A stretch of DNA of 64,000 nt from Armatimonadota bacterium (GTDB lineage: Bacteria > Armatimonadota > Fimbriimonadia > Fimbriimonadales > Fimbriimonadaceae). Shown here one piece after another: positions 14,499-27,810 of this stretch. The position numbers and the translations under genes are program-made. The first letter of the stretch is position 1, and the number at the start of each line of letters is the position of its first letter. The stretch covers positions 1-64,000 of the forward strand of contig JAKOXK010000017.1 in assembly GCA_029781035.1 (NCBI GenBank). The letters are read 5' to 3'. The notes beneath the pieces were generated by a model, which worked only from the letters and a program-made list of their open reading frames with translations, made no database searches and was not told where the DNA came from.

Positions 14499-14605
14499 AC
14501 AAGTGGGCCGGCCTGAAAATAGTCTTGAAAACTGACCTGAGCCCCTACAGATGAGATCAAGACCTGCCGTTATCCAAGGTAGCACGACCAGGCCCTAGCC
14601 CAGAC

Positions 14606-14672
14606 AAAGGCACGACGGAGGCGACTCCGATCACGCAAAGCCACGGATCTCAAGAAGACAGCCGGGTTGCCT
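14606..14672 (+). promoter_or_regulatory. Cyclic-di-GMP-I (GEMM) riboswitch upstream of flgM
   Basis: The core of the class I c-di-GMP aptamer is visible. P1 arms GGCA (14609-14612) and TGCC (14668-14671) close it. A CGGAG/CTCCG stem with a GCGA (GNRA) tetraloop lies at 14616-14629. The invariant ACGCAAAGCC spans 14633-14642, and the 3' segment AGCCGGGTTGCC lies at 14660-14671. The usual GGCAAACC is GGCACGAC here, the main departure from consensus. It sits about 28 nt before the flgM start, so it should tie FlgM synthesis to c-di-GMP. Confidence 0.85.
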
Positions 14673-14678
14673 GAGAAA

Positions 14679-14696
14679 GGACCAGTCGGGAGGTCT
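14679..14696 (+). promoter_or_regulatory. Hairpin over the flgM ribosome binding site
   Basis: GGACC (14679-14683) can pair with GGTCT (14692-14696; one G-U pair). This places the GGGAGG Shine-Dalgarno (14688-14693) partly in the stem and partly in the loop, 6 nt before the GTG start. It lies directly after the riboswitch aptamer and is a plausible translation-control platform. Confidence 0.5.
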
Positions 14697-14699
14697 GTC

Positions 14700-14966
14700 G
14701 TGAAAATAAGCACCGAACAACTCGAAAAAATCAAAGCGCTCGGCGGACAAGTGACGCCGCCTGGTTCCGTGGTCGACACCGCGGTCATCAAACTGATGGA
14801 CCGTGAACTCATCAGCAACGTCGTCTCAGACGTGAAATCGATGCCAGACCGCGAGGAGATGATCGCCGAAATCAAAGCGCGCCTCGACGCAGGCACCTAT
14901 CAGGTCACGGCCGATGAGGTCGTCGACGCCATGGTCCGGAGGGCCAAGGCCGACCAAGTCAGTTAG
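14700..14966 (+). CDS. flgM: Anti-sigma-28 factor FlgM
   Basis: The GTG at 14700 is chosen because GGGAGG lies 6 nt upstream; an ATG at 14667 falls inside the riboswitch. The 88-residue product has the FlgM pattern in its C-terminal half: 'DREEMIAEIKARLDAGTYQVTADEVVDAMVRRA', matching the conserved two-helix sigma-28 binding region with its G-x-Y-x-V step. FlgM holds the flagellar sigma factor inactive until the hook is complete. It lies near motA/motB but is separated from them by mutL on the other strand. Confidence 0.8.
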   Translation: MKISTEQLEKIKALGGQVTPPGSVVDTAVIKLMDRELISNVVSDVKSMPDREEMIAEIKARLDAGTYQVTADEVVDAMVRRAKADQVS

Positions 14967-14987
14967 GCAGACTCTGTTTCCAATTCT

Positions 14988-15017
14988 GGGGGCGAGGCTT
15001 GAAAGAGGCTCGCCCCC
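14988..15017. terminator. Terminator between flgM and mutL
   Basis: GGGGGCGAG (14988-14996) pairs with CTCGCCCCC (15009-15017) around a 12-nt loop, followed by TTT on the plus strand. It lies between convergent genes. Confidence 0.75.
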
Positions 15018-15059
15018 TTTCCGTCTGACGAATCCCTGACAGAACACAATGGGTGTCAC

Positions 15060-27612: not shown

Positions 27613-27629
27613 CACTTTTGAGGTTGCGA

Positions 27630-27714
27630 CGCCGCAATCCCTACGCTGGCATGACCCAGATCAGGTTCGAGGGGACAGTTCCCGGGGTCGGGAATCATCT
27701 CAGCCTTGCGGCGC
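27630..27714 (-). promoter_or_regulatory. TPP (THI) riboswitch aptamer
   Basis: On the minus strand all TPP hallmarks occur in order: P1 arm CGCCGCAA (27713-27706), GCTGAGA (27704-27698), GAACCTGATC (27668-27659), a CTGG..CCAG stem, GCGTAGGGA (27646-27638) and the closing P1 arm TTGCGGCG (27637-27630). It binds thiamine pyrophosphate in known cases and lies upstream of thiamine genes. Here the next gene on the same strand is a prepilin-like protein. Confidence 0.93.
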
Positions 27715-27810
27715 CCCCTGCGGACAAGCTTTCTTGCTTGTTGTGAGTGTACGACAGTTGAGCAAAGAGGAGAGGGCCCCATTCCGAGGACATGAGTCGG
27801 CCCGTTCGTT

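Follow-up and report, generated by a model that had tools for sequence, protein, structure and literature searches.

What does a class I cyclic-di-GMP (c-di-GMP) aptamer do directly in front of flgM, the gene for the anti-sigma-28 factor, and with which sign? The question is raised by a genome of the Fimbriimonadaceae (Armatimonadota), a phylum with few cultured members. In the bacteria that have been studied, proteins (FleQ, PilZ-domain proteins) are the main link between c-di-GMP and flagella, with an OFF riboswitch on an early operon as another in Clostridioides difficile. The window, by which we mean the whole 64,000-nucleotide stretch of DNA analysed, contains the following features around flgM:

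14544 to 14573, forward strand: sigma-28 (FliA)-like promoter, with CCTACA at 14544-14549, a 16-nt spacer and GCCGTTAT at 14566-14573
14583 to 14605, forward strand: 5′ leader strand of the anti-RBS helix P0 (CACGAC.AGGCC....CCC.GAC), overlapping the 5′ strand of P1
14594 to 14680, forward strand: closing helix P1, with CAG 14601-14603/CUG 14671-14673 and distal CCU 14594-14596/AGG 14678-14680
14599 to 14674, forward strand: c-di-GMP-I aptamer (RF01051, 43.8 bits)
14679 to 14696, forward strand: GGACC/GGUCU local hairpin, a possible local competitor and not a conserved platform
14685 to 14702, forward strand: RBS and start codon, the 3′ strand of P0 (GUC-GGGAGGUCUGUC-GUG)
14700 to 14966, forward strand: flgM (anti-sigma-28 factor), GTG start, 88 aa, apparently monocistronic (PF04316, 35.5 bits)

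The aptamer upstream of flgM is genuine. Searching the whole 64 kb window with cmscan and Rfam 15 gave the RF01051 (c-di-GMP-I) match at 14599-14674 (+), whose 43.8 bits (E-value 2.9e-5) exceed the gathering score of 35. The GTG of flgM starts 26 nt 3′ of the aptamer end (14674), and the reading frame from 14700 (GTG) to 14966 (TAG) is identified as FlgM (PF04316) at 35.5 bits, over the Pfam cut-off of 25. The original prediction, made from the sequence alone, had placed a class I c-di-GMP aptamer directly before flgM; the Infernal score above the family threshold and the Pfam match to FlgM bear it out, and ACGCAAAGCC, the GNRA-capped stem and AGCCGGGTTGCC lie where it had put them. The 3.4-Mb genome encodes a single FlgM, a FliA-family sigma factor above the curated cut-off and nine GGDEF domains, and has two RF01051 matches in all, the flgM copy included. 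The gene next after flgM is mutL, on the opposite strand; motA and motB lie farther along the same window.

Three other elements were seen in this genome. A likely terminator, absent from the output of a pattern scan, lies 3′ of flgM at 14983-15020: an inverted repeat rich in GC (GGGGGCGAG...CTCGCCCCC) with TTT behind it. A TPP riboswitch (RF00059, 67.1 bits) occupies 27620-27728 (-) of the window. The second c-di-GMP-I aptamer of the genome (L001, at G000:C15:29084-29180, 67.5 bits) lies, as read from the sequence, 5′ of a gene for a subtilisin-like S8 peptidase, and the pairing of such an aptamer with an S8 peptidase-like gene recurs in two relatives (L004 in G033 and L005 in G002).

In the families read, the predicted binding pocket is near-invariant. 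With the numbering of the Vc2 aptamer taken from PMC3764141, G20, G21 and C22 fall at 14609, 14610 and 14611, C44 at 14634, A47-A49 at 14637-14639, and, in the 3′ part, G83 at 14661 and C92 and C93 at 14670 and 14671. The named ligand contacts are G20, A47 and C92 (PMC3764141, PMC4744006), and all three are present in the window (14609, 14637, 14670). Among 111 sequences compared, G21, C22, A23, C44, G45, C46, A47, A48, A49 and C93 are found in every one (111/111), G20 in 108. C92 is present in almost every sequence, and one of the exceptions (G034) looks like an off-by-one of the residue-count script. The three sequences with A in place of G at position 20 (L101 in G020, L082 in G040, L085 in G041) may have an altered or relaxed choice of ligand.

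The helices covary as well. The original prediction had flagged two departures from consensus, one in a sequence motif and one a shortening of P2/P3; both are typical of the lineage, P2 being extended and covarying and P3 in the window shortened. GGCACGAC is part of this extended P2 across the lineage, with both sides changed at seven of seven pairs, and aptamer decay is ruled out as its cause, the form being lineage-wide and covarying. Compensatory changes in P2 and P3 altered 10 pairs on both sides, the C44-G83 pair is C-G in 42/42, and over the whole structure both-side changes filled 57 cells versus 16 in shuffles; in slid controls pairing drops to 23-40%. P1 is present in 71/71 genomes tested, the window copy having 9 bp with internal mismatches. 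In one relative (L081, G063) the P3 of the flgM aptamer is swollen by short repeats resembling GAGAATCGT that add about 90 nt.

The family was sampled with 85 Fimbriimonadaceae genomes, of which 68 have RF01051 and 78 have FlgM. The original prediction had pointed to relatives as the place where the arrangement should recur. Reading of the DNA 5′ of every flgM shows the aptamer directly upstream in 73 of the 78 FlgM-bearing genomes, as 74 copies that take in several below the Rfam threshold. The five FlgM-bearing family genomes lacking an upstream aptamer are G045, G046, G047, G059 and G060. Conversely, nearly every RF01051 match in the 85 genomes sits directly 5′ of flgM, and the seven family genomes without FlgM are without the aptamer too. 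This association is far beyond chance. Four genomes that have neither FlgM nor aptamer (G008, G009, G016 and G026) also have zero GGDEF domains, found in 14/14 of the other genomes checked, as if c-di-GMP synthesis and the flgM switch had been lost together.

Beyond the family, the rest of the order contributed at least 10 genomes paired by coordinates and 11 by sequence reading, and all five of its families are represented. In the wider phylum another 48 genomes, spread over ten other families, carry the aptamer at 166-263 nt 5′ of the FlgM domain. Together these make at least 142 genomes from 15 families, a lower bound that mixes coordinate pairing with sequence reading. In genus g41, which figures among the genomes paired by sequence reading, the short reading frames after the aptamer (L233, L237, L238, L240, L241, L243-L246) resemble FlgM proteins too divergent for PF04316; among the matches listed only G162/L241 has a Pfam match, and the riboswitch serves there as a marker for divergent FlgM. 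At 20 FlgM loci outside the Armatimonadota no Rfam match was found, although 10 of 19 of these genomes have RF01051 elsewhere. Both the spread across the phylum and the sigma-28 promoter described next are additions to the original prediction.

A conserved sigma-28-type promoter precedes the aptamer. In the window it has three mismatches to CCTAAA-N15/16-GCCGATAA and a fixed distance of about 69 nt separates it from the GCAAAG core; across the family the boxes lie some 62-78 nt 5′ of the aptamer core, and matches with at most three mismatches occur in 45/73 family genomes versus 0.3% of shuffles. Promoter boxes were seen by eye in other families too. The transcript should start at about 14579-14581, just 5′ of the leader strand. 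The mRNA bearing the riboswitch is thus probably transcribed by sigma-28, the very factor whose inhibitor the riboswitch would control; flgM of C. difficile is sigma-D dependent (PMC5386303).

Which element, then, would pass the state of the aptamer on to the gene? Control at the ribosome site, as originally predicted, agrees with what we find in the window's clade (21 genomes), where a coevolving leader:RBS helix spans both the Shine-Dalgarno (SD) sequence and the start codon. In the minimum-energy fold of 14580-14726 without ligand, the leader (14583-14605) is paired with 14685-14702, and this helix, P0, covers the GUG start codon and all of GGGAGG except the A. Compared with shuffled sites the leader:RBS duplex has a mean z of -2.8 and falls below -1 in 20/21 genomes, values to be read as strength and not as independent confirmation, the pairing elements having been picked from the sequences later tested. 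In a position scan the signal peaks at the leader alone. Leaders pair better with their own RBS (-14.7 kcal/mol) than with swapped ones (-11.6 kcal/mol; 0 of 20,000 permutations, a count that is not a strict probability because family genomes are related by descent). The pair types differ from genome to genome while the match is kept: CACGAC/GUCGUG in G000, UCGACCU/AGGUCGA in G031, UAAGCCU/AGGCUUA in G052 and GGACCUC/GAGGUCU in G082.

The original prediction had assigned the closing of GGGAGG to a GGACC/GGTCT stem, and this is not supported. GGACC (14679-14683) and GGTCT (14692-14696) are both present, but in the minimum-energy fold, where the long leader:RBS helix wins, they are not paired with each other. 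Read by eye, GGACC/GGTCT is found only in G000 and G034, and AGACC/GGTCT in G043 and G044. The hairpin was rejected as the platform on these two grounds, its few genomes and its absence from the fold.

P0 draws on the strand that closes the aptamer. The two helices have at least 3 nt in common in 19/21 genomes of the clade (5 leader nucleotides in the window sequence), and the start codon is paired in 17/21. Enforcing P1 lowers the mean cost of opening the RBS from 9.5 to 6.2 kcal/mol, in folding energies computed without ligand or tertiary contacts; opening becomes cheaper by more than 2 kcal/mol in 16/21 genomes and dearer by more than 2 kcal/mol in none of the 21. The same enforcement also cuts opening costs somewhat in the clade that lacks the leader helix. 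These energies suggest a strand exchange in which formation of P1 would leave the RBS free. The window's own P1 is weak (3 bp and an interrupted distal part). Its enforcement carries a modelled price of 7 kcal/mol, which the ligand together with tertiary contacts, or the order of events during transcription, must pay. Taken as a whole, this RNA folds only moderately better than shuffles (z -1.9).

Leader:RBS pairing is not a family-wide rule and breaks down in about 50 further genomes of the family. There (53 sequences) the partner of the P1 3′ strand (CUGUCUGAAA) is a stretch of flgM itself, codons 3-6 (UUUCAGAC). The mean z of this pairing is -3.0 (n=53), where the window's clade gives 0.0, and 0 of 20,000 permutations match it, figures to be read with the same reserve as those of the leader helix. 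Matched changes are seen in this helix (GUCGGAAA/UUUCCGAC, GUCCGAAA/UUUCGGAC), the pairing exceeds the expectation from synonymous recoding (mean z -1.6), and in 51/53 no fewer than 4 nt are shared with P1. In a sister family the SD itself pairs with the P1 3′ strand (CUGUCUCC/GGAGGCAG). Families f10-f14 and f19 repeat the aptamer 5′ strand GGCA(AAC) in the SD region; in most genomes of f31, f32 and f35 a GUUUGCC complementary to that strand is followed by a U-tract, with a match of at least 5 nt beside the T-run in 16/17, arranged as an attenuator would be. In each clade the blocking element competes with a strand of the aptamer, so the ligand should favour expression.

On these grounds we consider it probable that a sigma-28-transcribed c-di-GMP class I riboswitch turns FlgM ON, so that motility falls at high c-di-GMP. 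Sigma-28 would make flgM mRNA from the promoter just 5′ of the aptamer. As long as no ligand is bound, the leader, with the 5′ P1 strand as a part of it, would pair with the SD and GUG and leave flgM untranslated; with c-di-GMP bound, P1 would be locked in the aptamer, the leader strand lost to the RBS and FlgM made. FlgM would then hold sigma-28, and the late flagellar genes and motility would drop. The aptamer with its place and conservation, the coevolving leader:RBS helix, its overlap with P1 and the conserved promoter are results of computation; ligand binding, the ON direction and the effect on sigma-28 are what we infer here. The predicted sign follows from the geometry: c-di-GMP stacks on the uppermost pair of P1 (PMC3764141), and if P1 formation frees the RBS, ON is predicted. 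The original prediction had held that the direction of control cannot be told from sequence; this is true of a single sequence, but the comparison of related genomes points to ON.

The most probable of the alternatives, though unlikely, is the opposite sign. The ligand would close P1, the leader:RBS helix would stack outside it as an extension, and flgM would be shut off. OFF switches of the c-di-GMP-I class are known, such as Cd1 upstream of the flgB operon (PMC5386303, PMC4744006), and in the window the outer part of the helix, CACGAC/GUCGUG, encloses P1 in a nested arrangement that may be compatible with the proximal CAG/CUG pairs. A shorter form of the leader:RBS helix might persist outside P1 with the start codon still closed. 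Such stacking sits badly with the leader nucleotides shared with P1 (at least 3 in 19/21 genomes) and with the opening costs, which in the window's clade never rise by more than 2 kcal/mol when P1 is enforced. The differing elements of the sister clades, moreover, all compete with an aptamer strand, and an OFF switch would mean more of the sigma-28 inhibitor when c-di-GMP is low, contrary to the usual sense of c-di-GMP in motility.

Another ligand, 3′,3′-cGAMP or some variant specificity, is improbable. It would draw on the c-di-GMP-I-GGC model (RF03167), which in a small-region search scores slightly higher on the window than RF01051 (45.8 versus 43.8 bits), and on the A at position 20 of three relatives (G020, G040, G041), a change that shifts specificity towards cGAMP. 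Membership of RF03167 was rejected, however, 45.8 bits being below its gathering score of 59 and its consensus having G where the window has A47; the sensible filing is c-di-GMP-I. The contacts G20, A47 and C92, all in the window, and the nine encoded GGDEF domains also speak against another ligand. Least probable is that the aptamer is a relic, or a structural 5′ element that does no switching; one might cite for this a score only modestly over the cut-off, the shortened P3 and the weak P1 of the window. A relic would hardly show the compensatory P2/P3 changes (57 cells against 16 in shuffles), a pocket near-invariant in the families read, or one strand with two alternating partners.

Returning to the ON switch, we lean towards a phylum-wide circuit in which an mRNA made by sigma-28 is under c-di-GMP ON control for FlgM and sets the feedback, through at least four platforms with one sign. 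If true, c-di-GMP would set the strength of the sigma-28/FlgM negative feedback, and a conserved RNA would tie it directly to the sigma-28 checkpoint via FlgM in a poorly studied phylum. This would offer a testable account of switching between swimming and sessile life in the Armatimonadota, and one aptamer with one gene and varied platforms would be a natural series for platform change under a kept regulatory sign.

The original prediction knew of no riboswitch described on flgM, in agreement with the literature searched (which covers few subscription papers), where we found none. What appears new here is a widely conserved target of a known aptamer class, plus platforms that we have not seen described. 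The Vc1 and Vc2 aptamers of Vibrio cholerae (RF01051) are like ours in the core, the contact residues, the C44-G83 interhelical pair and the GNRA tetraloop of P2, and differ in that here the target is the anti-sigma factor gene flgM, P2 is extended with GGCACGAC and the RBS is predicted to be closed by the 5′ leader. The c-di-GMP-I-GGC family (RF03167) belongs to the same clan and is similar in overall sequence (45.8 bits on the window), but that score is under 59, and the A of the window stands where the consensus of that family has G. The merRNA of Bdellovibrio bacteriovorus (PMC3627812) is likewise a riboswitch RNA for c-di-GMP and is plentiful in the motile attack phase, whose program FliA largely drives, but it controls no conserved reading frame, is proposed to store c-di-GMP and has no FliA promoter in its own table row. 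OmrA and OmrB act post-transcriptionally on Escherichia coli flgM (PMC7549644), at early codons and with an effect on sigma-28 output, but are trans-acting, Hfq-dependent sRNAs with no ligand-binding cis element. Cd1 of C. difficile (PMC5386303) also places a c-di-GMP-I aptamer on the flagellar hierarchy, indirectly on sigma-D/sigma-28, and no riboswitch is reported there for the sigma-D-dependent flgM. It is an OFF switch working by transcription termination on the early flgB operon, which carries the sigma gene, while the riboswitch described here is predicted to be ON, translational in the window's clade, and placed on the anti-sigma gene.
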